From positions 1-27,080 of the forward strand of contig JAICXF010000023.1 of the NCBI GenBank assembly GCA_025981625.1: DNA of 27,080 nucleotides, written 5' to 3'. The position numbers and the translations under genes were made by a program. A model generated the notes under the pieces. The model worked only from the letters and a program-made list of their open reading frames with translations. It searched no databases and had not been told where the DNA came from. Shown here one piece after another: positions 3,001-26,589 of the stretch (positions are counted from its first letter, which is position 1; every line of letters starts with the position of its first letter). The DNA comes from Sphingomonas sp. Its GTDB lineage: Bacteria; Pseudomonadota; Alphaproteobacteria; Sphingomonadales; Sphingomonadaceae.

Positions 3001-3878
3001 TCACCAGCATTTCACTGTCGAGCGACGGCATCGGCTATTCAGCGGCGAACGGCGATGTCGAGGTCGTGGGTGGCGGCAAATTCACCTACGCCAACGGAAC
3101 GACCGGCGTGCTCGCCGATTCCGTGTTCGCAACCGGTGGCAGGGCCACGGACGAGCTGGCCCGGGCAAATTCGGGCCTGGGCTCGAGCCCTGCGCTGCTC
3201 GGTGCGGTCGCCGCCGCTGGCCTGATGGCGATTCCCGTCGATGCCGCGACCCGTCCCGGCGCCGCAGCCGAGCTTTCCGCAGCGGGCGCGCACCCGCTGG
3301 TGGCTGCCGACCAGCCGCTCGCAACGGCCGCGGGCGAGGCCAACCATGCGCTGTCGGGCGAGACCAAGGTGGCGCTCGACCAGGGCAGTGTCACTCCCGC
3401 CGCTGCCGCTTCTGGATCCACTCCGGTTTCTGCAGACCACCTCAGCGCGACGGACACTGGTCACCAGATGTACCCGCTCGATGCGCTTCTTGCGCCGGAC
3501 AGCGTCCACGCGCCGCTCTCGGGGCTGCTGGCGTTCGCTTCTCACCCGGGAGCCGTGTCCGCGGCAATGCTCGAGGCGGCCATGGCGGGGATCGCCGGTC
3601 ACCACGCCGCGCAGGCGGACGTGCATGCCGGCTCGAGCGACGGTTCGGCGCAGCTCGGCGATGTCCTGTCAGACGCGATTGCGGCAGGATCGGCGGGCAA
3701 GCCGGACATCGATTCGGTGCTCCACGCGCTTCACGGCAACGAGCATCCGCACGACATCCTCGCGCATGCGCTCGCGCTCGCCGGTCCGGTCGGCCACAGC
3801 CTCGTTTTCTCGCATGGACTGCACATGTTCCACATCACCGAATCGATGGCGATGCATGCCGCGGCCTCGCACGGGTAA
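1..3878 (+). CDS. Giant secreted calcium-binding repeat protein (VCBS / RTX / EF-hand-like), 3' part
   Basis: The frame is open from base 3, so the gene is cut by the window edge; about 1,291 codons to the TAA at 3876-3878 are visible. The first 50 or so residues are the end of a VCBS-type domain ending in [10 protein letters not shown]. Cadherin/Ig-like beta domains follow to about base 1250. Bases 1290-1570 hold an RTX-like block ([16 protein letters not shown]), and bases 1580-2400 hold beta-helix-like repeats rich in 'NNGTI' and 'NSGTI'. Bases 2660-3000 carry four Asp/Asn-rich calcium loops ([32 protein letters not shown]). The C-terminal ~230 residues are Ala/Gly-rich with many His and are low-complexity. 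This order is typical of type I-secreted adhesins or large exoproteins; export and adhesion are inferred. No secretion genes are adjacent in the window. Confidence 0.85.
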
Positions 3879-6760: not shown

Positions 6761-7105
6761 CCGGAACCGCGGCCGTGCTTTTGGACACTTCGGAGCGATT
6801 GGTGCGATCGCAAACGCGACGGGTCCAGGATGTTGCTGAGGCTGGTCGCGAGACTGCTTGCAGCTGCTGGTGGTTGGAGTGATAATCGGGGAGGTCGCAG
6901 GGTCGGCGCTGGTATGACTCATGAGCCGGTTGGAAGTGATGGGCATGATCTCCTTGGCGGGGACGGTCTTCGGGGGGCTCGCCCTCCTCGCCGGTTTAGC
7001 CTTGATCCGCTTGATGTGAGATTCGGCGTCGCTTGACCCAGCTGCGTGGCATCCGAATTGCCAGTGTCGTATTGGCCGCCTGCCGGGGATGCCCGGAGAG
7101 CAGAG
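6761..7105. other. Non-coding or decayed stretch upstream of the serine recombinase
   Basis: No gene with a convincing start is present in these 345 bp. One plus-strand frame encodes two hydrophobic stretches broken by a stop: one reads LQLLVVGVIIGEVAGSALV then TGA, the next is a possible 32-codon ORF at 6921-7019 with one membrane-spanning segment (GTVFGGLALLAGLALIRLM). There is no ribosome binding site before 6921, so this may be a decayed small membrane protein. A minus-strand frame across the region looks like a shadow. Confidence 0.35.
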
Positions 7106-8863
7106 ATGCCAAAACCCCACCACAGCAATCTCGCCATTAAGCGTTGCGCCATTTACACGCGAAAAAGCGTTCAACTTGGCCTCGAGCGGGACTTCAATAC
7201 GCTGGAAGCCCAGCGAGCAATTTGCTCCGCCTACACGACGAGCCAGGCACACAAGGGATGGCAGGCGCTTGCCAAGCATTACGATGATGGTGGCGAGTCC
7301 GGCTCGACGCTGGCTCGGCCCATGCTGCAGCAGTTACTTGGCGACATTGAGAGCGGCCTGGTCGACGTCGTTCTCGTCTACAAGATCGACCGGCTCACGC
7401 GGACCCTCCTCGATTTCGTCCGCCTTGCCGACTTCTTCGAACGATACGGTGTGGTGTTCGTCTCGATCACGCAGAACTTCGACACGGCTGACAGCATGGG
7501 ACGACTTGTCCTCAACATCCTTCTCACGTTCGCGCAGTTCGAGCGTGAAATGCTTTCGGATCGGCTTCGCGACCGCGTTCGCGCGTGCAAGCAATCGGGA
7601 CGGTGGGCCGGCGGTCCAGCTCCATACGGGTACGATCTCAGTCGCCGGAGGCTCCACGTAAATCCGGACGAAGCAGAGCGGGTGAAATGGATCTTCGAAC
7701 GCTATGTCGAAGTCCAAAACCTGACGCAGGTCTTTCGTGAGGCTCGCGACAGCGGGATGAGCAGCAAGCGGTGGCGAACACGAGCAGGCCACTTCAGCGG
7801 CGGCGGTCCGCTAACCAAATCGCTGATCAATCACATATTGGGCAACCCGATCTATGTAGGCGATATCCGCCATGGCAAAGACACGTATGTCGGCCTCCAC
7901 GCGCCTATCATCGCACGGAACATCTTCGATCGAGTGCAGGCGATCCGATCGGCGCATGCCTCAAAGAAGGCCGGTCGCAACGCCGATCACATACTGACGG
8001 ACCTTCTCTTCGACTGCTTCGGTCGTCCGATGAGCGTCAGAGTGACTCTCATCGAAGGAAGTTCGATCAGACGTTCTCGAACTTACGTTTCGTGCCAGAG
8101 CGCATGGGGCAAACGCAGGCAACTGAAGCGGATGCGTGCGCCTGCAGACGAAGTGGAGGAGCTTGTCACAACCGCGATCAGTACCTTTCTCTCCGACGCT
8201 GAGCGCGTGCGATCGATGCTCATGTCTTGTGGCAGACACGGGCAGGAGTTCGAGAGACTCGCCTCCAAATCCAACGCAGCAGGCAAGCGCCTCAATCATG
8301 TACCGAGAGATAGACTCCGGCTGATCCTCCGCGCACTCATTGAACGCATCGAATTATCTCTTGAACGAGTGAAAATTATTGTCCGATGCAATGAGCTGGA
8401 ACGCTTCATCGCCTGGGACGGCGTTGGCCTGTTCAAGGCTCGCCTTGACACTTGGCCGCACTCGCGGACCGAGCTGATTGATGTGCCTGCGTCGTCGATA
8501 CGCTATGACCGCCATTTACTGATGCCAATCGAGCCAAAGCCGCCCAACACCCCAACGAATCCGTCGCCGGGTCTCCAGCGGCTGATATCCGAAGCCAGAA
8601 AGTTGCAAGCGTTAGTTGATCAGCGGCGCGAGCTCAGCATTCCGGAGCTTGCCAGCGCGTCGAGGCTCTCGCCATGGCGTTTCGCGCGCGTTCTGCGGCT
8701 CAACTACCTTGCGCCGGATATTATTTCCTCGATTCTGGACGGCACTCAGCCCGGCGGTCTCACGCGCCAAAAACTCGTCAAAGCCCACCTGCCTATGGAC
8801 TGGGCACTTCAACGAACATTGCTCGGATTCTCTCCTCGCCAGCCGCTGGAGGGCGGTGAGTAG
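7106..8863 (+). CDS. Large serine site-specific recombinase
   Basis: The protein has 585 residues. ATG at 7106 has GGAG 7 nt upstream; a GTG at 7046 is possible but lacks a site. The N-terminal resolvase catalytic domain (about residues 10-160) contains YTRKS with nucleophile Ser21, followed by YKIDRLTR. The Recombinase domain follows (GGPAPYGYDL, LTKSLINHILGNPIYVG, about 180-290). A zinc-ribbon-like region comes next (CFGRPMSV...YVSC, two Cys only, so probably degenerate). The C-terminal HTH-like part ends LAPDIISSILDG...LPMDWALQRTLLGF, a form I associate with alphaproteobacterial phage or island recombinases. Codon use is visibly more AT-rich than in neighbouring genes (for example 8340-8390). 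It is probably the integrase of a past or present mobile element; no phage structural genes and no clear att sites were seen. Confidence 0.9.
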   Translation: MPKPHHSNLAIKRCAIYTRKSVQLGLERDFNTLEAQRAICSAYTTSQAHKGWQALAKHYDDGGESGSTLARPMLQQLLGDIESGLVDVVLVYKIDRLTRTLLDFVRLADFFERYGVVFVSITQNFDTADSMGRLVLNILLTFAQFEREMLSDRLRDRVRACKQSGRWAGGPAPYGYDLSRRRLHVNPDEAERVKWIFERYVEVQNLTQVFREARDSGMSSKRWRTRAGHFSGGGPLTKSLINHILGNPIYVGDIRHGKDTYVGLHAPIIARNIFDRVQAIRSAHASKKAGRNADHILTDLLFDCFGRPMSVRVTLIEGSSIRRSRTYVSCQSAWGKRRQLKRMRAPADEVEELVTTAISTFLSDAERVRSMLMSCGRHGQEFERLASKSNAAGKRLNHVPRDRLRLILRALIERIELSLERVKIIVRCNELERFIAWDGVGLFKARLDTWPHSRTELIDVPASSIRYDRHLLMPIEPKPPNTPTNPSPGLQRLISEARKLQALVDQRRELSIPELASASRLSPWRFARVLRLNYLAPDIISSILDGTQPGGLTRQKLVKAHLPMDWALQRTLLGFSPRQPLEGGE

Positions 8864-8955: not shown

Positions 8956-9243
8956 CTACGCCGTTTCGGCCAGCATCAATCTTTCCGGCGGCACGTCCAA
9001 GGCTTCGGCCAGGGTACCGATCGTTTCGAGCGTGGCGCTGTGGCGGCCGCGTTCAAGCTGATTGAGGAACGTTCGGCATATTCCAGCGGCAGAGGCCAGT
9101 TGCTCCTGAGTCATCTGCCTCTTGCGACGCAGGAGCCGGACGTTGCGCGCGAATCTTGACCTGAGGCGGTCCCCGGCTTCGCTGCTCGGCGCTCGCCGCC
9201 TGGATCGAGCGGCGGTTGTCTTCGATGGGCCTCGGGAGATCAA
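8956..9243 (-). CDS. Small XRE-family (Cro/CI-type HTH) transcriptional regulator
   Basis: This is a 95-residue protein with a basic N-terminal tail and a complete HTH_3 domain in residues ~30-90 (RNVRLLRRKRQMTQEQLA, GICRTFLNQLERGRHSAT, LAEALDVPPERLM). The open frame extends upstream to 9498 without a convincing start, as a shadow of the SLAM gene. I chose TTG at 9241-9243, which overlaps the SLAM TGA (9240-9242) in a TTGA junction with CAGGG just upstream, so it is probably the last, translationally coupled gene of the lipoprotein-SLAM operon. Its targets are unknown; autoregulation of the operon is possible. It could also be a separate regulator inherited with the recombinase-bounded segment. 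The start is less certain than the domain call. Confidence 0.7.
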   Translation of the reverse strand: MISRGPSKTTAARSRRRAPSSEAGDRLRSRFARNVRLLRRKRQMTQEQLASAAGICRTFLNQLERGRHSATLETIGTLAEALDVPPERLMLAETA

Positions 9244-10556
9244 AAGGCCCTGACCAATGCAAATTCGGTCCGTGTCCGCTTGTAGTCGTAGAACTCGATG
9301 GTGCTGCGATTGCGCTCGATGGTGAAGCGGGCGACCGGCGAAAATCCACGGAAGGTCAGTTGCCTGAACGTGGCTCCGAGCGTCAGGCGCGAATAGCGGT
9401 CGCGCCGCTTGTCCGGGAATAACATCAGGCGGTCGTCGGCATTGAGGCGCCCTATCTCGGCGCTGGCAGTCAGCGTGGCGCGGCCTACATCCTTCCATCC
9501 GAGCACGCTTGCTCTCCAGCCACTGGTCGAATAGCCCGGGTCCTTGAGGCTCTGGCGATCCAGTCCCAGGTTGAGCGCTGCGCCCGTAGTCGTCGATAGT
9601 GCCCGCTCGACGCTCACCTGCCCGGAATAGCCCTTGCCGTCCTGAAGGTCGTTCAATTGATTGTCGATCAGGGAGGCGCTCGAATTGACCCTAAGCTGGG
9701 TGCGGCTGCCCAAGGGTCGGATCCAGGTCACAGCCGCGCGTGCCGATCGACTGAAGGGCTTTTGCCCATACCAGCGCTGGGTGACGCCAACCTCCAGGTT
9801 GAGCTGGTTGCGCCCGACGCGAAGTTCCGGCCCGGCTGCGAAATCCAGAGCGACATCGTTGAAGTCGCTCTTCCCGTAAAGATCCCCAAAGCCGCTGACT
9901 CGGGCGAGGAAGCTAGTGTCTCCATTGCGCAGCGCGAACCGCCGGAAGGCCTGGCCCCGGAGTGACAGGCCAAGACCGGACCTCGCTTTGCTTGCGTGGT
10001 CGATGTCGAAGTCGCCGAAGATCGTTCCAAGCGTATCGGACCGCGTGGCGTGGTTGATGTTGCTGTCAGGCGCCAAAGCAAGCTCGAAGCTGGCGCCGAC
10101 GGGCCGGGACGCCCTCAGAGCCTCGGAATATCGGTCGACCAATCTGGCGACCGCCGGCGGCAATCCCTCCGCCTGGGCCGCCCGAAGCTCACGAAGCGCG
10201 GCAGTGGAATCCCCCATCACCTGCAGCAGGTGCGCGAGTTCGAGGCGAACCGTCGTCGCGTCCGGCTTGTCGTCAAGGATGCGCCGCAGAAGCAGCGCCG
10301 CGTCGCGATTGCGCTTTTCCTGAATGAGCAGCTCGGCATGCAGGAACCGTGCTTCCGAGCGGATATCGGGATCCGGGTTCTTCTCCAGCGCAGCATAGAC
10401 GGCGCGGACGGTCACCATATCGCCTTTGGCCGTCGCAATCTCCGCCAGGCGGAACATCTCGGCAGGAGTCAGCCTCAGTGTCCGCGTCGCCTGCACTGGG
10501 GAGGCGGCGGCGCCTGGGAGAGAAGACGCCGCCAGCAGGAGGGCAGTCGACAGCAT
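9240..10556 (-). CDS. SLAM-type surface lipoprotein assembly modifier (TPR plus outer-membrane beta-barrel, DUF560)
   Basis: The protein has 438 residues, near the usual SLAM length. It has a short signal peptide (MLSTALLLAASSLPGAAA), a helical TPR-like N-domain (about 28-150), then a barrel that starts at GASFELALAPDSNINHA. PDSNIN (163-168) is the family's characteristic junction motif. Alternating amphipathic strands follow and the chain ends ...RTEFALVRAF, with the terminal Phe typical of outer-membrane barrels. SLAM proteins move specific lipoproteins to the cell surface. The gene just upstream encodes a TbpB-like lipoprotein, the standard client. ATG at 10554-10556 is only three codons after the in-frame TAA of that gene, and no clear Shine-Dalgarno is visible, so translation is probably coupled. 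The client assignment is inference from position and fold. Confidence 0.85.
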   Translation of the reverse strand: MLSTALLLAASSLPGAAASPVQATRTLRLTPAEMFRLAEIATAKGDMVTVRAVYAALEKNPDPDIRSEARFLHAELLIQEKRNRDAALLLRRILDDKPDATTVRLELAHLLQVMGDSTAALRELRAAQAEGLPPAVARLVDRYSEALRASRPVGASFELALAPDSNINHATRSDTLGTIFGDFDIDHASKARSGLGLSLRGQAFRRFALRNGDTSFLARVSGFGDLYGKSDFNDVALDFAAGPELRVGRNQLNLEVGVTQRWYGQKPFSRSARAAVTWIRPLGSRTQLRVNSSASLIDNQLNDLQDGKGYSGQVSVERALSTTTGAALNLGLDRQSLKDPGYSTSGWRASVLGWKDVGRATLTASAEIGRLNADDRLMLFPDKRRDRYSRLTLGATFRQLTFRGFSPVARFTIERNRSTIEFYDYKRTRTEFALVRAF

Positions 10557-10565
10557 GGTTCTTGG

Positions 10566-11570
10566 TTAGTTGCCGCGCTTGGCAATCCACGCGCCGAACG
10601 CTTGATGAACCTTGTTGTCCGCCTGCAGAGTTTCGCCGCTCGTCGCGAAGACGAAGGGCAGTGCCCAGGCGCCAATCGTTTCCTCGGCGCCGGGACCCGT
10701 GAACCGGCCGAGGAAGAAGTTGTCGCCGTCCACGTTCGTGTCGAACTTGCCCGAATAGGTCGGACTGCCGACCGAAAAAACCGTGTCCTTGAAAGCGTAT
10801 GTGCCCAGCGGGAGGGACTGCATACCGTCGGGCAAGGACAGGCTCATTGAGCCGGTAAGCGAGCCCGCCGCAAAATCGAACGACAGTTGGACATCACCGC
10901 CGACCCCAAGCGGGACATAGCCGCCGTAAAAGGTGTCGGATGTCATGATGTCAGTGGAGCCTGTAGCAAATCCGGCAAAGTCCGCGTGACCCGTAGTGGG
11001 AACGTTCTGCGGCGCGGTCGGTGATCCGAACGCGACCCAACCCCAGCGGCCGGCAGCGTCTGAGCCCCAGGCAGCCAACTCTGAATAGGAATAGCCCTGC
11101 TTGCGAGCCTGGTCGGTCAACAGATAGCCAAGATTCTCGGCGACTGACGCGGGCTGGAAATAATTGAAATCCGCTGGGTCGTCCGGGACCGACCCCTTGT
11201 AGAAAATCAGCTTGTCCCAGTCGGAACCGGGCATTTTTATCTCATAATAGCCGGCCGCCGTATATCGTATGTGAGGCTGGTCCGAATCTGCAGACGAGAC
11301 GGTGTCGAACATCGTCGGCTGGTCGTACTCGTCGAGGTTCCCACCCGTCCCCGCAATCGAAGCGCCAACGGACGCATATTCACCCGGCGTCGGGCTGGGG
11401 AAAATATTGACCGACGCGGCTGTATCCGGAGGCGGCGGAGGCGGCGGAGGTGGAGGAGGCGGCGCCGGCACAAACGGCGTAGACTCCACGCCTCCGCCCC
11501 CGCCCCCGCACGCCGAGAGCGCTATCGCTGTTGCACCGACGAGCAGGCACCGAAGATGTTGGACGCGCAT
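10566..11570 (-). CDS. TbpB-like surface lipoprotein, probable SLAM client
   Basis: The protein has 334 residues. ATG at 11568-11570 is preceded by GAGGGAG at good spacing; a TTG at 11588 is less likely. A lipoprotein signal ends in the lipobox LSAC, with lipidated Cys21 followed by six Gly and a 12-residue polyproline run (37-48), a flexible tether suited to surface display. The C-terminal half has the pattern of TbpB/factor-H-binding-protein beta-barrels: VQLSFDFAAGSLTGSMSL, then strand repeats, then FLGRFTGPGAEETIGAW. No ligand can be named. In the wider family, clients bind transferrin, heme, complement factors or other ligands. It is the first gene of an operon with the SLAM gene, and direct repeats at 11626-11669 lie 56-99 nt upstream. 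Confidence 0.85.
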   Translation of the reverse strand: MRVQHLRCLLVGATAIALSACGGGGGGVESTPFVPAPPPPPPPPPPPPDTAASVNIFPSPTPGEYASVGASIAGTGGNLDEYDQPTMFDTVSSADSDQPHIRYTAAGYYEIKMPGSDWDKLIFYKGSVPDDPADFNYFQPASVAENLGYLLTDQARKQGYSYSELAAWGSDAAGRWGWVAFGSPTAPQNVPTTGHADFAGFATGSTDIMTSDTFYGGYVPLGVGGDVQLSFDFAAGSLTGSMSLSLPDGMQSLPLGTYAFKDTVFSVGSPTYSGKFDTNVDGDNFFLGRFTGPGAEETIGAWALPFVFATSGETLQADNKVHQAFGAWIAKRGN

Positions 11571-11625
11571 GACTTTGCTCCCTCGCAAAACCGAGGGGCC
11601 CGCGTAGGACCAACCAAGTCGTGTA

Positions 11626-11669
11626 TGCGATGATGATGTGCCGATGATCTGCCGATCATTGCCTGATCA
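11626..11669 (-). promoter_or_regulatory. Tandem 11-bp direct repeats, putative winged-helix regulator box upstream of the lipoprotein gene
   Basis: Read on the minus strand, four consecutive 11-nt units begin at 11669, 11658, 11647 and 11636. Each starts T(G/C)ATC; the first three continue with GGCA (consensus TSATCnGGCA, for example TGATCGGCAGA) and the fourth is degenerate. An 11-bp helical phase is the known binding mode of PhoB/OmpR-type winged helices. The regulator with such a domain is encoded next door, and a closely similar array precedes it (13201-13233). The position suits an activator site. Confidence 0.6.
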
Positions 11670-11686
11670 GAGTGGCTACCGACTGC

Positions 11687-13186
11687 CTAGGCCGAAATAC
11701 TGGTATCTGGACCAACGCCCCGTTGCCGCCAGTAAGACGCTAGCCCGAGTTCCTCGCATGTCGCGCTGAATCGCGGGTCAGCACGGACAGCCGCAAGGGG
11801 TGGCATGAACAGCCAATGGGTGCGGCACCAGCTCGCGGAATTTGCGACGAAGTTGCGGGGCACGATCGGCCGGTCCGCCACCAAAGGCCCCTTGCTCAGC
11901 AACAGTCCGTCGATGACGTCGAAGGCTGAGTCGATCTCCCCAAGCTGGGTGAGTGCCATTGCTGCGTACGCAGCCTGGCCGGGATTGAGCCGCGCCGCCT
12001 TCAAATTGGCTTCTCTGGCCGCCGCGACTTTCGCCGCGGTGGGGCTGGTGAAGGCTTCGAGTGTTGGTTGCCATTGATCGATGCGGGCAGGGAGCGAGTT
12101 GCGAGCAGGGGCAACCGGATTGCGAAGCATCGCCATGGCTGCGCCGGCCCGGCCGCTAAAGGCAAGGATCATGAACCGCGCGTTCCACACGAATGCATGC
12201 GTCGGCCACAGCGGCAGCAAGCGTTCGCTCAAGGTGAGCGCTTCCCCGGTGCGGCCGGCGGTCCACAGCCGCAGGGCGCGCCTCCACTGCGGCGTCGGCG
12301 AAGCCGGGGCGAGCGCCGCGGCTCTCTCATTGTAGAGCCACGACCTGGAGGTCCGCCCCAGCCCCTGAAGCAAGGTTGCGAGGCTTCCGAGTATATGTAC
12401 GTTTGTCGGCGCCAACGCTCGCACGGCCTCCAGCTGATCCTCGATCTGAGCCCAGTCGAGACTGCCCGACTTCATGTCGATCATCGCGAGGCGAGCATGC
12501 GGTTCGTTCGGATCGCGAACCAGGGCAGATCGCGCTGCCTGTTCCGCATCGAGCAGCGTCTCGCCAGGGTTGCTTGCCCCACCATTGTACGCCCGGGTTT
12601 CTTCGGTCAGTGCGAGTAGTCCCAGCGTCTTTGGATCGTTCGGATGGATTTTGAGCGAAGCTCGCAATGGGGCGAGCGCAACTCCGGCCTCAAGCGGGAC
12701 GGAATCACGCAGAAGGATGTCACCCCGGTCGGTAAGACGCCGCGCGTCCGAAGCCTGCGCATCCGTCCCCGCACGCCAGAGCGCGGCACCGCCAAGTGCC
12801 ACCAGCAAGGAAGCGCCCCCGGCCAACGCCGTTCGGCGGGAGACCAGGGACTTGGCTTTGGCGTTGTCCGGATCGACGATGAGCCGGTATCCTGCCCGGG
12901 GTACCGTCTCGATCACCACAGTGCCGCTGCTGGTACATTCGAGCGCTTTGCGAAGGCTGGCGACCAGCCGGTTAAGGCTATCGTCGCCGACCTGGGCCTT
13001 GCCCCAAAGGCTGTCGAACAACTCCCGACGCGAAAGCACCTCTCCCTGTCGATCGAGTAGTTGTTCGAAGAGCCGCATGACCATGGGCTCCACGGCGGTC
13101 TCGCCACCCGGGCCTGCAATTCGGCGACGGACCGGATCGATCGTCAATCCAGCAACTTGAAGAGGAAACGCCGCCGTTGCGTTCAC
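11687..13186 (-). CDS. ToxR/CadC-like one-component regulator: winged helix, membrane segment, TPR sensor
   Basis: The protein has 499 residues. An OmpR/PhoB-type winged-helix DNA-binding domain fills residues ~8-105 (GGETAVEPMVMRLFEQLL, SRRELFDSLWG, DDSLNRLVASLRKAL, VIETVPRAGYRL). One transmembrane segment follows (~118-138, ALAGGASLLVALGGAALW), then a long periplasmic TPR-like Ala/Leu-rich region to the end. This is the CadC/ToxR layout: a membrane-bound DNA-binding protein with an outside sensor. There is no receiver domain or kinase partner nearby. The start is GTG at 13184-13186, with AGGGGG upstream. It lies just upstream of the lipoprotein-SLAM pair on the same strand, and matching 11-bp repeat arrays precede both units, so it probably regulates them and itself. 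The signal sensed is unknown. Confidence 0.85.
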   Translation of the reverse strand: MNATAAFPLQVAGLTIDPVRRRIAGPGGETAVEPMVMRLFEQLLDRQGEVLSRRELFDSLWGKAQVGDDSLNRLVASLRKALECTSSGTVVIETVPRAGYRLIVDPDNAKAKSLVSRRTALAGGASLLVALGGAALWRAGTDAQASDARRLTDRGDILLRDSVPLEAGVALAPLRASLKIHPNDPKTLGLLALTEETRAYNGGASNPGETLLDAEQAARSALVRDPNEPHARLAMIDMKSGSLDWAQIEDQLEAVRALAPTNVHILGSLATLLQGLGRTSRSWLYNERAAALAPASPTPQWRRALRLWTAGRTGEALTLSERLLPLWPTHAFVWNARFMILAFSGRAGAAMAMLRNPVAPARNSLPARIDQWQPTLEAFTSPTAAKVAAAREANLKAARLNPGQAAYAAMALTQLGEIDSAFDVIDGLLLSKGPLVADRPIVPRNFVANSASWCRTHWLFMPPLAAVRADPRFSATCEELGLASYWRQRGVGPDTSISA

Positions 13187-13416
13187 TGCCTCGCCCCCTT
13201 TGATCGACGGATCATCGGCGCTTCATCATGGGCCAATAGCTTGCGACCGCCAAGCCCCCCCTGTCGGCCAGACCGAGCGGTACCGAAGAGACATCCGCAG
13301 CGGAATTCCTGCGCTCTGAAATGGGTCGACAGCCGCCGTAAGCAGACGGACCGGTATCGGCCAAAGCTTGTACCTAGTCCGTTTCCGCGGAGGCCATTCT
13401 GGCCACGGAGAACGTC
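13187..13416. other. Intergenic region with regulator box, otherwise no gene seen
   Basis: This 230-bp gap separates the winged-helix regulator from the recombinase relic. Apart from the direct-repeat box at 13201-13233, I see no supported feature; open frames here have no ribosome binding site or recognisable domain. A Shine-Dalgarno-like GGAG at 13407-13410 belongs to the relic that follows. Confidence 0.4.
13201..13233 (+). promoter_or_regulatory. Three 11-bp direct repeats upstream of the winged-helix regulator gene (probable autoregulatory box)
   Basis: On the plus strand the units begin at 13201 (TGATCGACGGA), 13212 (TCATCGGCGCT) and 13223 (TCATCATGGGC). Compared unit by unit with the last three units of the array at 11626-11658 (minus strand), 26 of 33 bases are identical, in the same order and phase. 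The site ends 15 nt from the GTG of the regulator gene and is in opposite orientation to it, which would fit autorepression. Confidence 0.55.
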
Positions 13417-13604: not shown

Positions 13605-13750
13605 CGAGAGAATTGTTGTTCAGTGACTGCGCCCACCGCCAGCATTCGAGAGCAAGCTGGCATAAGCGTCGATCCGTCGCTGCTCATGCCTGACTTGGCG
13701 ACGTTTGCATGGCGTTGAAGGACCTGCTTTCGCGGACTAGCCGTAGGTCG
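13605..13750. other. Unassigned sequence between the integrase relic and the sugar symporter gene
   Basis: Sequence similarity to the integrase family ends at 13604, and the symporter's recognisable domain begins near 13805. The stretch between may be the junction of the accessory segment with the ancestral locus. No terminal inverted repeats, tRNA or clear promoter were seen. Confidence 0.3.
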
Positions 13751-15121
13751 ATGAAATACACCTTCCGAACGACCCTGCGCGGGACCGATGGTTCCCCGGT
13801 GCGCGTGTCGAGGCCTCGGCTGGCGCTCTTCGCTTTCGGGGACTTCGCGTTCAATCTTTACTGGCAGAGCATCATGCTCTTCCTGCTGTTCTACTATACG
13901 GACGCGCTGGAGATCTCGATCGGGGTCGCGGCGACGACCTACATGGTCGCGTCGGTGTGGGACGGCATCGCCAATTTCATCGCCGGCGTGCTGGTCGACC
14001 GCGAGCACAGCCGCTTCCGCTACGGACCGTTGCTGGTTGCTGGAGCGGTGCCGCTCGGGCTCACCTTCGTCCTGACCTACATGCTCCCGCCAGTGACCGG
14101 CGCCTGGGCGATCGCCTGGGTCTTCGTCGCGCACCTGTTGTTCCGCACTGCCTATGCAGCGGTCAACGTGCCCTATCTCGCGATGTCGGCGCGGATCAGC
14201 CCCGATCCGCGCGATCGCGCGTTCGTTGCCGGCCTCAGGATGCTGTCCGGCACCGGGGCCGCGGTGTTCGTCGCGCTCGGCACGATCCCGGTGGGGCACT
14301 GGCTGACCGGAGGCAGCGCAGCGCAGGCCTATTTCGGCGCGGCGATGCTCTTCGCCCTGATAGCCGCGGCGATCCTGATCGTGGTCGGCGCGAGCTATCG
14401 CGAGGCCGCGGAGGCCCGCCGTCCGGTCCCGGCGAGCATCAAGGCTGCGCTTGTGAGCCTCTCGCGCAACGCGGCCTTCGTCGCGCTTAACGCCGCGATG
14501 ATGGCGGTGATCGTCGCCATGACCGTGCTCAGCAAGTCGGTGCTCTATTATTTCAAATATGTGCTGGAGGTTGCGCACGCCGGCGAGGTAGCGCTCGCGT
14601 GGATGGGCCTCGTCGGCGGCATCGCGATCCCTCTGTGGATGCTGCTTGGACGGTTCGTCGGCCTTCGAGCGCTGTGGCTGATCGCCGTCGGGTTCGGCAT
14701 CGTGGGCCTGCTGATCTTCATGGGCGTCAAGGTCGACGGAGCAGGCGCGATGCAGGTCTTCCTGGTCGGCATGCAGGTGATGGCGGTCGGCGTCTATTTC
14801 GTGTTCTGGGCGATGCTTCCGAACACGATCGAATATGGCGAACGCGCGACGGGTCTGCACGTCGAAGGAACCGTGTTCGGAGTCGCCGCGCTGCTTCAGC
14901 GGATCGCGATCGGCATCGCCACGGCCATCCTCGGGTGGGGATTCGATTCCGCCGGCTATGTCGCGAACGTGCGGCAGAGCGCGGCAACGCTGGCGGGCAT
15001 GCGGATGACCATTGCCGTGACGCCGCTGGTGTTCCTGGCCTTGTCATGCATGGCGATGCTGTGGAACCCGCTGGGCCGCCGCCCCAGCCAGGCGCCGGAG
15101 ATCGCCGGAGCCGCGGGCTAG
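13751..15121 (+). CDS. GPH-family (glycoside-pentoside-hexuronide) cation symporter, MFS
   Basis: The protein has about 456 residues and twelve predicted membrane segments. The N-terminus of the fold (RLALFAFGDFAFNLYWQSI) and the motifs YYTDALEISIGVAATTYMVAS, WDGIANFIAGVLVDR, and NVPYLAMSARISPDPRDRA (given as separate stretches) are those of GPH sugar symporters such as MelB/XynP/LacS relatives. It would carry a glycoside or oligosaccharide across the inner membrane. The start is uncertain: ATG 13709, ATG 13751 and GTG 13805 are all possible and none has a strong site. I used 13751, which has a weak TAGG before it. It converges on the GH3 gene and shares a 4-bp CTAG with it in which both stops lie. 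The neighbouring GH3, GH144-type and receptor genes suggest a glucan-derived substrate. Confidence 0.88.
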   Translation: MKYTFRTTLRGTDGSPVRVSRPRLALFAFGDFAFNLYWQSIMLFLLFYYTDALEISIGVAATTYMVASVWDGIANFIAGVLVDREHSRFRYGPLLVAGAVPLGLTFVLTYMLPPVTGAWAIAWVFVAHLLFRTAYAAVNVPYLAMSARISPDPRDRAFVAGLRMLSGTGAAVFVALGTIPVGHWLTGGSAAQAYFGAAMLFALIAAAILIVVGASYREAAEARRPVPASIKAALVSLSRNAAFVALNAAMMAVIVAMTVLSKSVLYYFKYVLEVAHAGEVALAWMGLVGGIAIPLWMLLGRFVGLRALWLIAVGFGIVGLLIFMGVKVDGAGAMQVFLVGMQVMAVGVYFVFWAMLPNTIEYGERATGLHVEGTVFGVAALLQRIAIGIATAILGWGFDSAGYVANVRQSAATLAGMRMTIAVTPLVFLALSCMAMLWNPLGRRPSQAPEIAGAAG

Positions 15122-17406
15122 GCGACGAGGTCGAAGCTCCCGTGCACGCCCTCGGCTTGCGCGGATGGCGCGATCCATACGTCGAACGTGCCCGGCTCGA
15201 CGGTGGGCCGGTCCTGCAGCCCGTAGAAAGCGAGGTCGGACGGAGTCAGCGTAAAGCGCACCACCTGCGATTGGCCGGGCGCGAGCGCGACCTTGCGGAA
15301 CGCTTTGAGCTCCCGGACGGGCTGGGTGACGCTCGCGACGCGGTCGTGGATGTACAGCTGCGCGACTTCCTCGGCGGCGCGGCTCCCGCGATTGGTGATC
15401 GTCGCCGCGATCTGGATCGAGCCGTTCGCCGGCATCGTCGGGCTGCTCAGGGCAAAGCCGCTATACTCGATCCTGCCGTAGGTGAGCCCGTGGCCGAACG
15501 GGAAACGGGCGCTGTTCGGAATGCCGCGGAAATGCGCCTTGTAGGGCTGGAGCTCGCCGGGCGGGTTGGGCCGCCCGGTCGGCTTGTGCGCATAATAATA
15601 AGGCTCCTGGCCGGATTTCCACGGGAAGCTCGCGGGCAGGCGGCCGGACGGACCATAAGCGCCGAACAGCACGTCGGCGATGGCATTGCCGGTCTCGGTA
15701 CCGAGGAACCATGTCGCGAGGATCGCCGGCGCATCCGCGACGGCGCCTTCGAGCGCGAGCGCGCGACCATGCTTCAGGACCACGACCATCGGCTTGCCGG
15801 TCGCCGCGACGGCTTCGGCCAGCGCCTGCTGCGGCGCGGGCACGACAATCTCGGTCCGCGACTGCGCTTCGCCCGACATGTTCGCGCTTTCGCCGATGGC
15901 GAGGATGACGATATCGGCGGTTCGGGCAGCGGAGACGGCCTGTTCGATTCCGCCTGGCAGCGGCTCCTCGACGCCGGAACCCGGCGCGACGATCACCGAC
16001 TGAGGGTTCGCGACCGCGGCGCGGATTCCGTTTGCCAGATCGACCGCCTTTGCGTCGTCGCCATAGACGACCCACGGGCCGACCAGGTCGTGCGGACCGG
16101 CGGCGAATGGCCCGATCAGCGCGATCCTTTTGCCCGAGCGCGGCAGCGGCAGCAGGTCGCCGTCGTTCTTCAAGAGGACGATCGCCTTGCGGCCCGCTTC
16201 GCGAGCGAGCGCGCGCGTCTGCGGAAGCACCGAGCGCGCGGCCTCGCGCTTCTCGTCGATCCGGCGGAAGGGATCGTCGAACAGGCCGAGCATCGCCTTG
16301 AGCGCAAGCACGCGGCGCACCGATTGGTCGAGCTTCGCCTCCGGCACTTCGCCGGCGCGGACGAGGTCGGGCAGGAACTGGCGATAGAGGCCGCTCTGCA
16401 TGCTCATGTCGACGCCGGCGAGGAACGCGAGCCTGGCAGCGTCCCGGCCGTCCTTCGCATAGCCGGCGGCAATCATTTCCTCGTCGCCGGTGTAGTCGGA
16501 GACGACGAAGCCTTCGAAACCCCACTCGCCGCGCAGCAGGTCGGTCATCAGCCAGTGGTTGCCGGTCGAGGGGACGCCGTTGATCTCGTTGAACGAGGCC
16601 ATCGCCGACAGCGCACCGGCCTCGAAGCCGGCCTTGTAGGTCTGGAGATACACCTGGCGCAGCCGGCGCATCGACATGTCGACGACGTTATAGTCGAGCC
16701 CCGATTCCGCCGCCCCGTAGGCAGCGAAATGCTTGATGCAGGACAATAGGTGCTCGTTCGACTTGAGGTCCGGCCCCTGGAAGCCGCGCACTCTCGCGGC
16801 CGCGAACAGGCTGCCGAGCAGCGGGTCCTCGCCGCCGCCTTCCACTCCGCGGCCCCAGCGCTGATCGCGCGCGACGTCGACCATCGGCGAGAAGGTCCAG
16901 TCGATTCCGGCACCCGATGCCTCGAACGCTGCCGCTTCGGCGGTGCGCCGGGCAAGCTCCGGCTCGAAGCTCGCGACCTCGGCGAGCGGGACGGGGAAGA
17001 TCGTGCGATGCCCGTGGATGATGTCGGCGCCGAAGATCAGCGGGATCTTCAACCGCGACTGGCTTGCAGCGGCGGTCTGCAGGATGCGCGCCATCCGCGC
17101 GCCGTTGCCGTTGAAGACGCCGGTGAGCAGTCCCTCGCGGGCTTCCTTCACCTGCTGCTCGAAGTCCGAGCCGTTGCCCGGCGGGTTGAGGCTGAGCGCC
17201 GCGCCGCCGCCCCATGCGGAGGCCATCAGCTGGAGCTGGCCGGCCTTCTCCTCGAGCGTCATCCGCGACACGAGCTGGTCGACGAAGGCCGGAATCTGCA
17301 CCTTGCCGGCGGCCAGCAGAAGCGCGCGCGCGGGGCTGGCGAGCCAGGCGGCTGCGGCCCCGGCGGAAATGAGAATGGCGCGTCGTGAAACCGCCAGGTC
17401 CAGCAT
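15118..17406 (-). CDS. bglX: Glycoside hydrolase family 3 beta-glucosidase, exported (BglX-like)
   Basis: The protein has 762 residues, the usual BglX length. ATG at 17404-17406 has GAGGGAG upstream; a start at 17451 is possible but unsupported. The N-terminus has a twin-arginine-like signal (SRRAILISAGAAAAWLASPARA, SRR then a hydrophobic stretch). The TIM-barrel domain holds GADIIHGHRT, RWGRGVEGGGEDP, CIKHFAAYG and GFVVSDYTG, with Asp304 as the expected nucleophile. The second domain holds MSGEAQSR with Glu513 as the likely acid/base. A C-terminal fibronectin-III-like domain (VTQPVRELKAFRKVAL) completes the family order. It would release glucose from beta-glucosides in the periplasm; linkage preference cannot be read from sequence. 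It is divergent from the LacI gene with a LacI-type operator between them. Confidence 0.92.
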   Translation of the reverse strand: MLDLAVSRRAILISAGAAAAWLASPARALLLAAGKVQIPAFVDQLVSRMTLEEKAGQLQLMASAWGGGAALSLNPPGNGSDFEQQVKEAREGLLTGVFNGNGARMARILQTAAASQSRLKIPLIFGADIIHGHRTIFPVPLAEVASFEPELARRTAEAAAFEASGAGIDWTFSPMVDVARDQRWGRGVEGGGEDPLLGSLFAAARVRGFQGPDLKSNEHLLSCIKHFAAYGAAESGLDYNVVDMSMRRLRQVYLQTYKAGFEAGALSAMASFNEINGVPSTGNHWLMTDLLRGEWGFEGFVVSDYTGDEEMIAAGYAKDGRDAARLAFLAGVDMSMQSGLYRQFLPDLVRAGEVPEAKLDQSVRRVLALKAMLGLFDDPFRRIDEKREAARSVLPQTRALAREAGRKAIVLLKNDGDLLPLPRSGKRIALIGPFAAGPHDLVGPWVVYGDDAKAVDLANGIRAAVANPQSVIVAPGSGVEEPLPGGIEQAVSAARTADIVILAIGESANMSGEAQSRTEIVVPAPQQALAEAVAATGKPMVVVLKHGRALALEGAVADAPAILATWFLGTETGNAIADVLFGAYGPSGRLPASFPWKSGQEPYYYAHKPTGRPNPPGELQPYKAHFRGIPNSARFPFGHGLTYGRIEYSGFALSSPTMPANGSIQIAATITNRGSRAAEEVAQLYIHDRVASVTQPVRELKAFRKVALAPGQSQVVRFTLTPSDLAFYGLQDRPTVEPGTFDVWIAPSAQAEGVHGSFDLVA

Positions 17407-17481
17407 GAACTCTCCCTCTATCCCCGGACCGAGCCATAGACGAGGTGCCAAGCCGGCATCGCCGCCGTGCTTGACGCCTCG

Positions 17482-17495
17482 TGTAACCGGTTACA
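17482..17495. promoter_or_regulatory. LacI-type operator palindrome between GH3 and lacI-family genes
   Basis: TGTAACCGGTTACA is a perfect 14-bp palindrome with a central CG, the classic form of LacI-family operators. It lies 75 nt upstream of the GH3 ATG and 96 nt upstream of the LacI ATG. A TTGACG hexamer (17471-17476) precedes it on the plus strand, so the site may sit in the promoter spacer. The same sequence recurs upstream of the TonB receptor (23845-23860). Confidence 0.75.
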
Positions 17496-17591
17496 TGACG
17501 CACGCGCAGCGCAATTGCAATCGCCCCGCGAGTGGCTTTTGCGCGCTGTGCAGTCGATGGGATACAGCTCCTGCTGCTCACTCGGGAAAGC

Positions 17592-18578
17592 ATGTCCAAA
17601 GCCACGATCCGCCACGTCGCCCGCCGCGCGCAGCTCTCCGTCGCCACCGTGTCGCGCGCGCTCAACGGATTCGACAACGTCAGCGACGATGCGCGCGACC
17701 GGGTCGCCGAGGCCGTTCGCGAGCTCGGCTATGTCCCGCATGCGGGGGCGCGCAGCCTCAGCCTCGCGAGGACCAACGCGCTGGGCGTCGTGCTCCCCGA
17801 CCTTCACGGCGAGTTTTTCTCGGAATTCGTGCGCGGCATGGACCGGGAAGCGAGCCGTCGCGGCTATCTCCTGCTGCTTTCGAACCTGCACGCCCAGGCG
17901 GAGCAGGCGGTGCTGGCGCTGAGGGCAATGCACGGGCGGGTGGACGGCCTGATCGTAATGGCGCCCCATCTTGCCGCGGAGGATCTCGCGGCGGCACTGC
18001 CGGCGGGCGTGCCGTCGGTTCTCGTCAACACGCGCGACGGACGCAGCGGCCGCGCCGCGATCCATCTCGACAATGCGGCCGGAGCGCAGGCGGTGGTCGA
18101 TCATCTGGTCTCGATCGGACGCAAGCGGCTGGTGCACATCGCGGGCCCTGAGGGCAATATTGACGCCGACGAGCGTGCGGCGGCCTTTACCGCAGGCTGT
18201 ACGGCGCGCGGCGTCGACGGTCTCATCATGCGCGGCGATTTCGACGAAAGCTCGGGCGAGCGGGCGATCCTCGAGTTGCTTGATCGAGGCCAGTCGTTCG
18301 ACGGACTGTTCGCGGCGAACGACAATATGGCGATCGGCGCGCTGGCGGCGCTCCGCGCGCGCGCCGTGCAAGTGCCGGACGAGGTGGCGGTGGCCGGGTT
18401 CGACGACATCCCGCTCGCGCGCCATCTCGGCCTCACGACCGTGCGCGTGCGGATCGACGAGCTTGGCGAGCGCGCCGTTGCGCGGCTGCTCCAGTCGATG
18501 GCGACTCCGGATAGCAACGGCGACGAGCGGCATGCGCCCGAGCTCGTCGTGCGGCACACGACCGACCGGGGCCGTTGA
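17592..18578 (+). CDS. LacI-family transcriptional regulator
   Basis: The protein has 328 residues. ATG at 17592 follows GGGAAAG and opens directly into the LacI HTH (TIRHVARRAQLSVATVSRALNG, residues ~5-26; the recognition helix is VATVSRALNG), followed by the hinge GYVPHAGARSLSLART. The periplasmic-binding-protein-like sensor domain fills the rest (NALGVVLPDLHGEFF, GLIVMAP, FDGLFAANDNMAIG, VAVAGFDDIPLARHL). It most likely represses the glucan genes and itself through the palindromes at 17482 and 23845, with a sugar as inducer. Its TGA (18576-18578) overlaps the ATG of the GH144-type gene, so the two are co-translated. The sugar effector is not known. Confidence 0.93.
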   Translation: MSKATIRHVARRAQLSVATVSRALNGFDNVSDDARDRVAEAVRELGYVPHAGARSLSLARTNALGVVLPDLHGEFFSEFVRGMDREASRRGYLLLLSNLHAQAEQAVLALRAMHGRVDGLIVMAPHLAAEDLAAALPAGVPSVLVNTRDGRSGRAAIHLDNAAGAQAVVDHLVSIGRKRLVHIAGPEGNIDADERAAAFTAGCTARGVDGLIMRGDFDESSGERAILELLDRGQSFDGLFAANDNMAIGALAALRARAVQVPDEVAVAGFDDIPLARHLGLTTVRVRIDELGERAVARLLQSMATPDSNGDERHAPELVVRHTTDRGR

Positions 18579-19993
18579 TGGACCTCGATCGTCGGCAGCT
18601 TCTCGAGCGATCGGCGCTGCTTGCCGCGGCCGTCGCGCTGCCGGTGCGCGCGTTCGCGGCGGCTCCGCGGACGCTCCCCGCCTTCTACGAGGATATCGAG
18701 CACCGCACCTTCCGCTGGTTCTGGGACACGGCCAATCGTCACAACGGGCTGGTGCCCGACCGAGCGCCGAGCCCGAGCTTCGCGAGCATTGCGGCGGTCG
18801 GTTTCGCGCTTCCCGCTTATGCGATCGGTGTCGAGCGCGGCTGGTGCACGAGGGTGGAGGCGCGTGAGCTTACGCTGACGACCCTGCGCTTCTTCTGGAA
18901 CGCGCCGCAGGGGCCGGAACCGGCCGGCACGACTGGCGAGGCAGGCTTCTTCTACCACTTTCTCGACATGGAGACGGGGACGCGATTCCGCGACGTCGAG
19001 CTGTCGAGCGTCGACACCACCATCCTGCTGATGGGCGCCCTGTTCGCGGCGCAATATTTTGATCGCGATGATGCGGCGGAGCGGGAGATCAGGCGGCTCG
19101 GCGATGCGCTCTACGATCGCGCCGACTGGAACTTTTTCCGAAGCGACGGACGCCGCGCAATCTCGATGGGCTGGCACCCGGGCGAAGGGCTGATCCCGGC
19201 AAACTGGGTCGGGTTCAATGAGGGGATGTTCGTCAACATCCTCGCGCTCGGCTCGCCGAGCCATCCCGCACCCGCAGACCTGTGGCAACAATGGACCTCG
19301 ACCTATGCGGATTATTGGCGCGGCGAGGGATCGACGCGGCGGCTCGCCTTCGCGCCGCTGTTCACGCATCAGTACAGCCAGATCTTCATCGATTTCCGCC
19401 GCATCCACGACGCGGTCATGCGAAAGGCGGGCTTCGACTATTTCGAGAACAGCCGGCGCGAAACCTATGCCAACCGCGCCTATTGCACCGCCAATCCGAT
19501 GGGCTGGCGCGGCTATTCGAGCGACCTGTGGGGTTTGACCGCGTGCGATGGACCGGGCGACTTCGAGCTTCCCTACCGCGGCGCGCGCAGAACATTCTAC
19601 GGCTATGCCGCGCGCGGGCCGGGGAGCGAGCCGGGCGGTGTCGACGACGGGACCATCGCGCCGACGGCCGCGCTTGGCTCGCTTCCTTTCGCTCCGGAGA
19701 TCGTGGTGCCGTGCGCCAGGCAGCTTTTGCGGCAGCCGGGGCTGTTCGACCGCTACGGCTTCAAGGACGCGTTCAACCCGAGCTTCACCTACGCCGGCCT
19801 CAAGGTGGGCACCGGCAGCGTCGACCCGCAGCACGGATGGGTGGGCAAGGACTATCTCGGCATCGACCAGGGTCCGATCCTGCTCCAGGCGGCGAATTAT
19901 CGCGACGACTTCGTGTGGCGGTACATGCGCCGCGTGCCGGCAATCCGCCGCGGCCTCAAGCGCGCCGGATTTTCCGGCGGATGGCTCGGCTGA
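18578..19993 (+). CDS. Glucoamylase-like glycoside hydrolase (GH144-type, endo-beta-1,2-glucanase-like), exported
   Basis: The protein has 471 residues. ATG at 18578 overlaps the LacI stop (TGATG). The N-terminus is a signal peptide with a twin-arginine-like start (DRRQLLERSALLAAAVALPVRAFA, RR then a hydrophobic core). The mature part reads as the Pfam 'glycoamylase' (PF10091) (alpha/alpha)6-barrel: HRTFRWFWDTAN, PSFASIAAVGFAL, GFFYHFLDM, SSVDTTILLMGALFA, NEGMFVNILALGSP, WGLTACDGPG, DGTIAPTAALGSLPFAPE and GIDQGPILLQAANYR. Characterised members of this fold form GH144, endo-beta-1,2-glucanases, so that is the leading activity; other glucan or polysaccharide targets are possible. Pairing with a GH3 enzyme fits stepwise breakdown to glucose. 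Catalytic acids cannot be assigned with confidence here. Confidence 0.82.
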   Translation: MDLDRRQLLERSALLAAAVALPVRAFAAAPRTLPAFYEDIEHRTFRWFWDTANRHNGLVPDRAPSPSFASIAAVGFALPAYAIGVERGWCTRVEARELTLTTLRFFWNAPQGPEPAGTTGEAGFFYHFLDMETGTRFRDVELSSVDTTILLMGALFAAQYFDRDDAAEREIRRLGDALYDRADWNFFRSDGRRAISMGWHPGEGLIPANWVGFNEGMFVNILALGSPSHPAPADLWQQWTSTYADYWRGEGSTRRLAFAPLFTHQYSQIFIDFRRIHDAVMRKAGFDYFENSRRETYANRAYCTANPMGWRGYSSDLWGLTACDGPGDFELPYRGARRTFYGYAARGPGSEPGGVDDGTIAPTAALGSLPFAPEIVVPCARQLLRQPGLFDRYGFKDAFNPSFTYAGLKVGTGSVDPQHGWVGKDYLGIDQGPILLQAANYRDDFVWRYMRRVPAIRRGLKRAGFSGGWLG

Positions 19994-20008
19994 GCGAAGC
20001 GGCTCAGC
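19989..20008. terminator. Stem-loop containing both stop codons of a convergent gene pair
   Basis: GCTGAGC (19989-19995), loop GAAGCG, GCTCAGC (20002-20008) form a 7-bp stem. The TGA of the GH144-type gene (19991-19993) lies in one arm and the TGA of the DUF6445 gene (20004-20006, minus) in the other. There is no T-run, so it would be a weak terminator or an mRNA 3'-end stabiliser acting both ways. Confidence 0.4.
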
Positions 20009-20687
20009 GCCCGCGGACGAACAGATTGGCGGTGAGCCGGCCTTCGCGCGGGTCGGCGCTGAAGCGCATGCCCGCGGGAATGATGCCGGAATGGAGAAGG
20101 CTTCCCTGATAGATGACGAGCCGGTCGGGCACCGCCTCGACCGCACTGATCTGCTCGAAGAACGCGTCCGAGCCGTCGATGTAGCCCGAGTCGTCGGGCA
20201 GGAGTGCCGCTTCGGCTTGCGCAACGCGCACGAAGGTCGCGAGATTCGCTTCGGTGACGCGCTCGATGCCGGTCGACCGCTGGCGATAGAAGGCAGTGCC
20301 GGAGCCCGGCGGAACCCTCAGGTAATGAAGCAGTGCGAGGTGCTTCTGGTCGGTCGTGTCGAAGTGCGGCGCACGCTGCGGCGGCGTCAGGCTCGCCGGT
20401 GGCGTGCTGACGATCGAGAAGCTCGCCTCGATCAGGTCGAAACTGTCGATGTCGAAACCGCCGCCGATGAACTGCGCTGCGCGCTCGCACGTTTCAGTGA
20501 CATAGGCCTCGGCAGCGATATCGCCGCTGCCGATGATCCGCCGTACGCCGGGGTAATAATTGGTGTGCGGAGGATAGGGGGCGAGGCTCTCGGCTAGACG
20601 CAGGATTTGGTCGAGCTCGCCGCTGAACTCGTCGATGACGACAACGTGGCTCTGCGTGTCTCCAAATCGTCGAAGTTCGGGCCTCAC
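20004..20687 (-). CDS. DUF6445 family protein, possible Fe(II)/2-oxoglutarate oxygenase-like fold
   Basis: The protein has 227 residues. The central stretch APHFDTTDQKHLALLHYL followed by GTAFYRQRSTGIE, and VIYQGSLLHSG...FSADPREGRLTANLF near the end, match the DUF6445 pattern seen near TonB receptors in sphingomonads, caulobacters and xanthomonads. I see a possible metal triad His108-x-Asp110 with His199, plus Arg213/Arg217 downstream, in the order HxD...H...R used by 2-oxoglutarate oxygenases; this function is inference. The start is GTG at 20685-20687, with AAGAG 6 nt upstream. A terminator-like hairpin lies just before it (20704-20732), so expression probably depends on read-through from the receptor gene. 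Confidence 0.8.
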   Translation of the reverse strand: MRPELRRFGDTQSHVVVIDEFSGELDQILRLAESLAPYPPHTNYYPGVRRIIGSGDIAAEAYVTETCERAAQFIGGGFDIDSFDLIEASFSIVSTPPASLTPPQRAPHFDTTDQKHLALLHYLRVPPGSGTAFYRQRSTGIERVTEANLATFVRVAQAEAALLPDDSGYIDGSDAFFEQISAVEAVPDRLVIYQGSLLHSGIIPAGMRFSADPREGRLTANLFVRGR

Positions 20688-20703
20688 TGAGGGCTCTTAG
20701 ACG

Positions 20704-20732
20704 AAAAGGGGAGGGGCGGTGAGGCCCCTCCC
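20704..20732 (-). terminator. Rho-independent terminator-like hairpin after the TonB receptor gene
   Basis: On the minus strand GGGAGGGGC (20732-20724 paired with 20717-20709), loop of 6 nt, and GCCCCTCCC form a 9-bp GC-rich stem that is followed by C then TTTT (20707-20704). It lies 42 nt after the receptor stop and only 16 nt before the GTG of the DUF6445 gene. It probably ends most receptor transcripts and lets a fraction through. Confidence 0.65.
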
Positions 20733-20773
20733 AATCGGCCCGAGGGGATTCAAGGGCCGGAGTTCTGTTCGAA

Positions 20774-23824: not shown

Positions 23825-23844
23825 TCGCGCTCTCCCCAACGGCG

Positions 23845-23860
23845 ATGTAACCGGTTACAT
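23845..23860. promoter_or_regulatory. LacI-type operator palindrome upstream of the TonB receptor
   Basis: ATGTAACCGGTTACAT is a perfect 16-bp palindrome whose inner 14 bp are identical to the site between the GH3 and LacI genes (17482-17495). It ends 21 nt from the receptor's GTG, next to the ribosome binding site, so a bound repressor would block transcription start or early elongation. It lies in the 174-bp gap between the halogenase and receptor genes. Confidence 0.75.
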
Positions 23861-23998
23861 TTACGGGTCCAAGCAATCGCCGCTTTGCGAACGGAGAAAC
23901 GCCTTCATCGGCGGCGAGTCAATTCGGCGGCGGGATCGATCTGACAGCTTTATGGCTGCTGTGGCTTTCAGGTCACGGCGCCCGTTCGTCGAAGCGGC

Positions 23999-26587: not shown

Positions 26588-26589
26588 CG

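Follow-up and report, generated by a model that had tools for sequence, protein, structure and literature searches.

Matching 11-bp repeat arrays beside a winged-helix/TPR regulator gene and a Slam-type lipoprotein operon in Sphingomonas

Two matching arrays and the genes beside them

The Sphingomonas locus described here raises the question of what two short arrays of direct repeats, one on either side of a gene for a winged-helix protein and one of them upstream of a gene pair for surface lipoprotein export, might do, and which protein might bind them. The window (the whole 27,080-nucleotide stretch of DNA that was analysed) carries the following features in this region.

9240-10556, minus strand: Slam / T11SS outer-membrane protein, 438 aa (SlipAM PF04575, 50.9 bits against a cut-off of 22)
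10566-11570, minus strand: TbpB-like lipoprotein, 334 aa, with the lipobox LSAC followed by glycines and prolines
11626-11669: lipoprotein-side array, four 11-bp units, plus-strand consensus GATSATnnGCC, antisense to the lipoprotein gene
11687-13186, minus strand: probably membrane-tethered regulator of 499 aa with a winged helix and a TPR-like region, GTG start (Pfam, AlphaFold2 model, Foldseek)
12776-12832, minus strand: hydrophobic segment, regulator residues 119-137, a possible single membrane span by hydropathy, with TPR-like helices following
12875-13162, minus strand: winged-helix DNA-binding domain, regulator residues 9-104 (Pfam and model)
13201-13233: regulator-side array, three 11-bp units, minus-strand consensus GATSATnnGCC, sense to the regulator gene

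Read on the minus strand, the units at 11626-11669 are TGATCAGGCAA, TGATCGGCAGA, TCATCGGCACA and TCATCATCGCA; on the plus strand, those at 13201-13233 are TGATCGACGGA, TCATCGGCGCT and TCATCATGGGC. Both arrays, with the four and three units given by a first-pass annotation of this DNA, were confirmed, and its count of shared bases was reproduced: the 33-mers at 13201-13233 (plus) and 11626-11658 (minus) are identical at 26 of 33 positions. Chance falls short of this: across 2000 first-order Markov simulations of both upstream regions the top score was 24 of 33, and 26 was never reached. Between 11400 and 13500, no inverted repeat listed by a repeat finder is longer than the one formed by the two arrays (29 nt, 86% complementary). 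All three genes (regulator, lipoprotein and Slam) share the minus strand, whereas the arrays run in opposite directions; the two arrays therefore have opposite polarity relative to their own genes.

The regulator-side array is kept in all five close orthologues of the regulator. When a matrix was built from six regulator-side arrays only (those of the five orthologues and the window's own), the held-out lipoprotein-side array scored 43.5, compared with a top score of 17.0 in 100 simulated 27-kb windows.

As had been proposed, the gene between the arrays encodes a winged helix of the PhoB/OmpR type, with a Trans_reg_C match (PF00486, 3.8e-13) at residues 30-102 and a CadC/ToxR-like fold. Its recognition helix contains GDDSLNR, a motif common to the homologues. 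Pfam gave only two further matches, both weak and to TPR families, and no receiver domain was found among them. The AlphaFold2 model (mean pLDDT 84, 31 sequences) comprises the winged helix at 9-104, a long helix from residue 126 and a helical solenoid up to residue 489, with helices spanning 164-489. In Foldseek searches the DNA-binding part resembles CadC (5ju7; TMt 0.81, 32% identity) and ToxR in complex with toxT DNA (8b4d; TMt 0.72), and the solenoid matches TPR proteins. Residues 119-137 form the most hydrophobic 19-residue window of the protein (mean hydropathy 1.58) and fall partly in a low-confidence stretch of the model (residues 108-133).

The lipoprotein scores 21 bits against TbpB_B_D in Pfam, under the 26-bit cut-off, and has no match in NCBIfam. 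Its AlphaFold2 model (mean pLDDT 90, 34 sequences) has Foldseek matches to TbpB (3v8u; 7.7e-7) and to the barrel at the C-terminus of NHBA (6cuj; TMt 0.68). Both features expected of a Slam-type surface lipoprotein were found, the lipobox in the sequence and the C-terminal TbpB-type barrel in the model and its Foldseek matches, and we predict a Slam-dependent surface lipoprotein that folds like TbpB. The Slam protein combines the SlipAM barrel with an N-terminal TPR region, TPR_19 scoring above its own Pfam cut-off and TPR_Slam below its own.

Upstream and downstream, the window has a varied content. A large gene of the serine-recombinase type with Resolvase and Recombinase domains (7046-8863, plus) and a Cro/C1-type HTH frame (8956-9498, minus) adjoin the Slam gene, and the lipoprotein-Slam unit may therefore lie at the edge of a mobile element. 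Positions 3-3878 (plus) encode a large repetitive protein with weak EF-hand matches that runs off the window start. The region 13709-27080 holds MFS sugar-transporter, TonB-dependent-receptor-like and tryptophan-halogenase-like genes, together with frames read as glycosidase-, LacI- and oxidoreductase-like, and looks like a sugar-use locus. Its sole matrix match (score 15.0, 22114-22143) lies inside the TonB-dependent-receptor-like gene and was taken as chance.

Arrays, regulator homologues and Slam genes across genomes

A scan of genome contigs identified two orthologues of the regulator, in Sphingomonas sp. URHD0057 (70%) and S. rhizophila (61%), and in both the array lies immediately upstream of the start codon. 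Among 71 Sphingomonas genomes, regulator homologues (E up to 1e-30) occur at 41 places in 24 genomes. Scanned with a matrix from 21 arrays at a threshold of 13, 35 of the 41 have an array beside them. In 26 cases it is a sense array within 400 bp upstream (the 5 close orthologues, 18 homologues at 35-43% identity and 3 more distant), 20 of these arrays having themselves helped to build the matrix; the other nine, all below 35% identity, have an antisense array no more than 150 bp from the 3' end of the match. Simulated flanks gave 9 sense-type and 2 antisense-type arrays in 1950. Six homologues have no array at threshold, two of them at contig ends and one a fragment. A held-out test used 17 newly fetched loci from genomes outside the 71, none of which contributed to the matrix: 14 have an array, sense and upstream in 12, compared with any array in 8 of 340 simulated loci.

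Several features of these loci were noted in passing. An antisense array follows just after the 3' end of distant homologues, and none precedes them, at L062, L064, L065, L067, L068, L069, L072 and L075, and among the distant homologues with a 3'-end array the recognition helix reads DAINR instead of DSLNR in six that were parsed. In some genomes (for example G001, G002, G006, G016, G017, G032, G036 and G070) two or more homologues have almost the same recognition helix, and an array there could be served by any of them. Convergent to the 3' end of the regulator gene there is a VTGER-type frame, with a start that by eye is TonB-dependent-receptor-like, at L043, L045, L047, L048, L051, L053, L054, L056, L057 and L066. 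It could be part of the regulator's signal path.

Slam genes were found in 16 of the 71 genomes, as 20 rows corresponding to 19 genes, one of them broken in two. An array precedes the lipoprotein or Slam gene at 11 of these 19 loci: at all nine that have a regulator homologue within 2.6 kb and, among the remaining ten, before a lipoprotein gene of the locus at L101 and L103. In G031 the regulator and lipoprotein genes are divergent, with a single array between them. Eight loci (L098, L099, L100, L102, L104, L105, L106 and L107) have no array before either gene. L098, L099 and L102 each adjoin a gene read as ribosomal L17, L105 is the broken Slam gene, at L107 the Slam match is close to a contig end (87-920), and at L106 the array stands before a neighbouring small secreted protein rather than before the lipoprotein or Slam gene. 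Conservation of the repeats in relatives, which had been put forward as a test, thus holds at 35 of 41 homologues and 11 of 19 Slam loci.

The three-gene link between regulator, lipoprotein and Slam protein fared less evenly. Paralogues of the regulator do adjoin Slam genes, but the five closest orthologues (60-70%), which have the array, have no Slam gene within roughly 8 kb on either side, and no TbpB-like lipoprotein was seen among the reading frames around them. Three of the five have a divergent exported-protein gene across the array, read as PEP-CTERM-like. The G001 orthologue has, 1 kb away, a gene for a small secreted protein with an antisense array of its own. Elsewhere, the linkage is carried by predicted paralogous regulators and not by close orthologues.

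The genome sequences were also searched with the pattern YGATSATNNNCYGATSATNNNCYGAT, using the reversed pattern as control. With up to two mismatches there are 72 matches in 31 of the 71 genomes and none for the control. With up to one mismatch, 29 of 397 genomes of the family match and the control again gives none; some of these matches look like coding sequence. The regulator is present in 14 of 15 genomes with a one-mismatch array compared with 10 of 56 others in the set of 71 (P = 1e-7), and in 11 of 29 compared with 23 of 368 in the set of 397 (P = 4e-6), where the family search gave 44 regulator rows in 34 genomes. Thirteen of the 31 genomes with a loose match have no strong regulator hit; five of these have a weak one and eight not even that. 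Twenty array places without a known regulator nearby were opened, yielding 18 arrays above threshold and one counted elsewhere. The matches at L140 and L151 lie in coding sequence and were set aside, L151 having no array at threshold. The many unrelated genome hits that the first-pass annotation had named as evidence against its proposal did not occur: 15 of the 18 arrays chosen by array alone precede exported-type starts on the antisense side.

These distributions bear on an alternative in which the arrays are operators of another winged-helix protein, either a PhoB/OmpR-type response regulator or a paralogue, with the intervening gene as just one of its targets. PhoB-family proteins also bind 11-bp direct repeats, the GDDSLNR helix is shared among homologues, 33 of the 60 arrays analysed below do not lie beside this regulator family, and 13 genomes have a loose array match but at best a weak regulator hit, which five of them show. 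Against this, the arrays go with the regulator family in both genome sets at the P values given above, and their position beside regulator genes at 35 of 41 and 14 of 17 places would be left unexplained by a general response regulator. We regard a different binder as unlikely, although a paralogue could fill this role.

Target genes, polarity and promoter geometry

The target set comprised 60 distinct arrays scoring at least 18. The window supplied two, regions fetched for a nearby regulator 37 and those fetched for another Slam gene three; the remaining 18 came from places selected on the array alone. Loci fetched for a regulator or Slam gene are a biased sample of targets. Gene starts were chosen by one rule applied everywhere, which in its strict form asked for an ATG behind a sequence resembling a ribosome-binding site and for a hydrophobic N-terminal stretch. 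Export was scored simply by hydropathy, in a way that favours exported starts, so the controls, taken under the identical rule, matter. Strictly defined, an exported start lies on the antisense side of 46 of the 60 arrays, 50-127 bp beyond the array (median 65.5), and on the sense side of six, compared with 178 of 756 other gene starts of these loci (odds ratio 10.7, P = 2e-16). A looser rule, which admits RTX proteins and other start codons, gave 51 antisense, 12 sense and 243 control starts, and left nine of the 60 arrays without an exported-type start. For the 18 array-only arrays the strict counts are 11 antisense and one sense (P = 9e-4 against 178/756), and the looser counts 15 and three.

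Protein families were assigned by scanning 54 of 55 ATG-start target proteins with E values up to 0.01, so that not all matches are above curated cut-offs; the protein omitted was that of L155, where the array has no clear exported target. Pfam matches were to TbpB_B_D (12), PEP-CTERM (9), RTX repeats (3), PD40 (3), Slam (2) and a YadA head (1), and NCBIfam matches to slam_lipo (14) and PEPxxWA-CTERM (9). In G002 (L158, 3014-5996), three tandem genes for lipoproteins of the CGGGG type each have an antisense array before them, with scores of 35.9, 16.5 and 28.6. Small secreted proteins of about 90-103 aa with a TRGECE/SRGACE-type motif were also seen behind arrays, at L052, L057, L061, L106, L153 and L157. 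The earlier suggestion that the regulator controls surface lipoprotein export and its own gene is thus supported by the conservation and polarity of the arrays as far as sequence comparison can indicate, and needs widening, as the apparent regulon extends beyond lipoprotein export to include Slam-type lipoproteins, PEP-CTERM proteins and RTX proteins.

When 50 target promoters were aligned on the array, the array was followed by a nearly flat stretch and then by an isolated A, 23 bp beyond the array, in 36 of the 50. Arrays without a neighbouring regulator have this A at +23 in 18 of 33 cases (background 0.19, P = 7e-6), those with one in 24 of 27, the 33/27 split being our own assignment to the regulator family or not. 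At a fixed offset from the array this single A stands out, and no hexamer resembling TATAAT does. The -10 element of sigma-70 promoters has an A at -11, and the conserved A at +23 fits such an element: read as its -11 position, it would place the array end near -34, with the array covering -35 in a PhoB-like activation geometry. The following putative promoter elements were located in the window.

11601-11606, minus strand: putative -10 hexamer TACGCG of the lipoprotein operon, its A 24 bp beyond the array (the family mode is 23)
13248-13253, minus strand: putative -35 hexamer TTGGCG of the regulator, from orthologous promoters
13225-13230, minus strand: putative regulator -10 hexamer, CATGAT, which overlaps the first array unit

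Six orthologous regulator promoters have TTGGCG (five) or TTGGCC (one), then 17 bp, then CATGAT. The overlap of CATGAT with the first array unit suggests that the regulator represses its own gene, and autorepression is probable on this promoter layout. The T of TTGG is the complement of the conserved A column, so divergent loci cannot separate the two readings, which makes the -35/-10 step on the regulator side weaker.

The same overlap would also suit a regulator acting as repressor at its own gene and at the lipoprotein operon alike. The target arrays, however, end about 34 bp upstream of the inferred transcription start, which is the geometry of an activator, and exported-type starts lie antisense in 46 of 60 cases and sense in six; double repression is accordingly judged quite improbable. 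That the match is due to chance, a mobile repeat or the remnant of a gene duplication, without regulatory meaning, can be dismissed: short two-copy repeats often arise by chance and at least two of the 20 array matches opened (L140 and L151) are in coding sequence, but chance or a mobile repeat is rejected by the simulations, the held-out matrix score and the reversed-pattern control (72 genome matches against none), the units are conserved amid variable flanking bases with a preferred place and polarity before gene starts, and the array recurs in held-out loci.

A possible circuit and its relation to known systems

Our preferred reading, to which we assign a probability of roughly 0.78, is that the arrays are operators of the CadC/ToxR-like regulator encoded between them, which would activate the lipoprotein-Slam operon and repress its own gene. 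It brings together features that are directly observed: the arrays, with their polarity and their conservation beside the regulator family, the mostly exported nature of the targets and the near-fixed A. The regulator would act as a one-component activator like CadC or ToxR, probably tethered by insertion in the membrane and reading a periplasmic signal through its TPR domain. Its winged helix would bind tandem 11-bp GATSATnnGCC units head to tail. The array of the lipoprotein-Slam operon would cover about -32 to -75, such that the bound regulator could meet RNA polymerase at -35 and switch on the TbpB-like lipoprotein and its Slam exporter. At the regulator's own promoter, where the array runs from the putative -10 towards the start codon, binding would most likely repress.

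More generally, there appears to be a family of winged-helix/TPR regulators, probably membrane-tethered, with an 11-bp-phased operator, that controls surface and secreted proteins of sphingomonads. A more speculative extension, which we offer tentatively and hold to be rather doubtful, is that sphingomonads use paralogous membrane switches with periplasmic TPR domains to sense surface-protein export. These would share an 11-bp-phased operator and serve cargoes of the T11SS, PEP-CTERM, RTX and YadA types, and a divergent array would activate the cargo and repress the regulator, forming an export-surveillance circuit.

Among known systems, CadC and ToxR are the closest in architecture. Like them, the window's regulator has an OmpR-type winged helix in its N-terminal part, then a hydrophobic segment and then a large C-terminal domain, and Pfam, topology and fold matches agree on a receiver-less winged helix of the OmpR/PhoB type at its N-terminus. 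The C-terminal part of this regulator is a TPR-like solenoid, from which the sensor domains of CadC and ToxR differ; the tandem GATSATnnGCC operator and the apparently surface-exposed or secreted targets are further differences. PhoB offers a parallel in its operator, the pho box consisting of 11-bp direct repeats that overlap -35, as the arrays would here. TIGR02154 fits only the DNA-binding domain of the regulator, however (41 bits against a cut-off of 296), the N-terminal receiver domain of PhoB-type proteins is absent by Pfam, the unit sequence is another one, and the array is sense at the regulator and antisense at its targets. Regulators of the HilA/EilA type are also winged helices fused to TPR-like repeats, but NF009037 covers no more than residues 37-102 of the window's regulator (42 bits against a cut-off of 589); HilA is cytoplasmic and has another operator and other targets.

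On the export side, the PF04575 protein of the window adjoins a TbpB-like lipoprotein and in this resembles subcluster 1C of the T11SS (Slam / DUF560) proteins, described in the text of PMC8406197 as largely from environmental Sphingomonadaceae and without a characterised representative. The words regulator, winged and promoter do not occur in the main texts of PMC8406197 and PMC12282271, and among the literature matches listed none described the operator or the regulator family. The present analysis would provide this T11SS group, which has no characterised member in the text of PMC8406197, with a defined operator sequence, a rule for its polarity and a candidate family of regulators, and would tie a single operator to PEP-CTERM, RTX and other exported proteins as well. 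A surface regulon could thereby become predictable from genome sequence, and direct tests of how environmental bacteria control Slam-dependent export would become possible.
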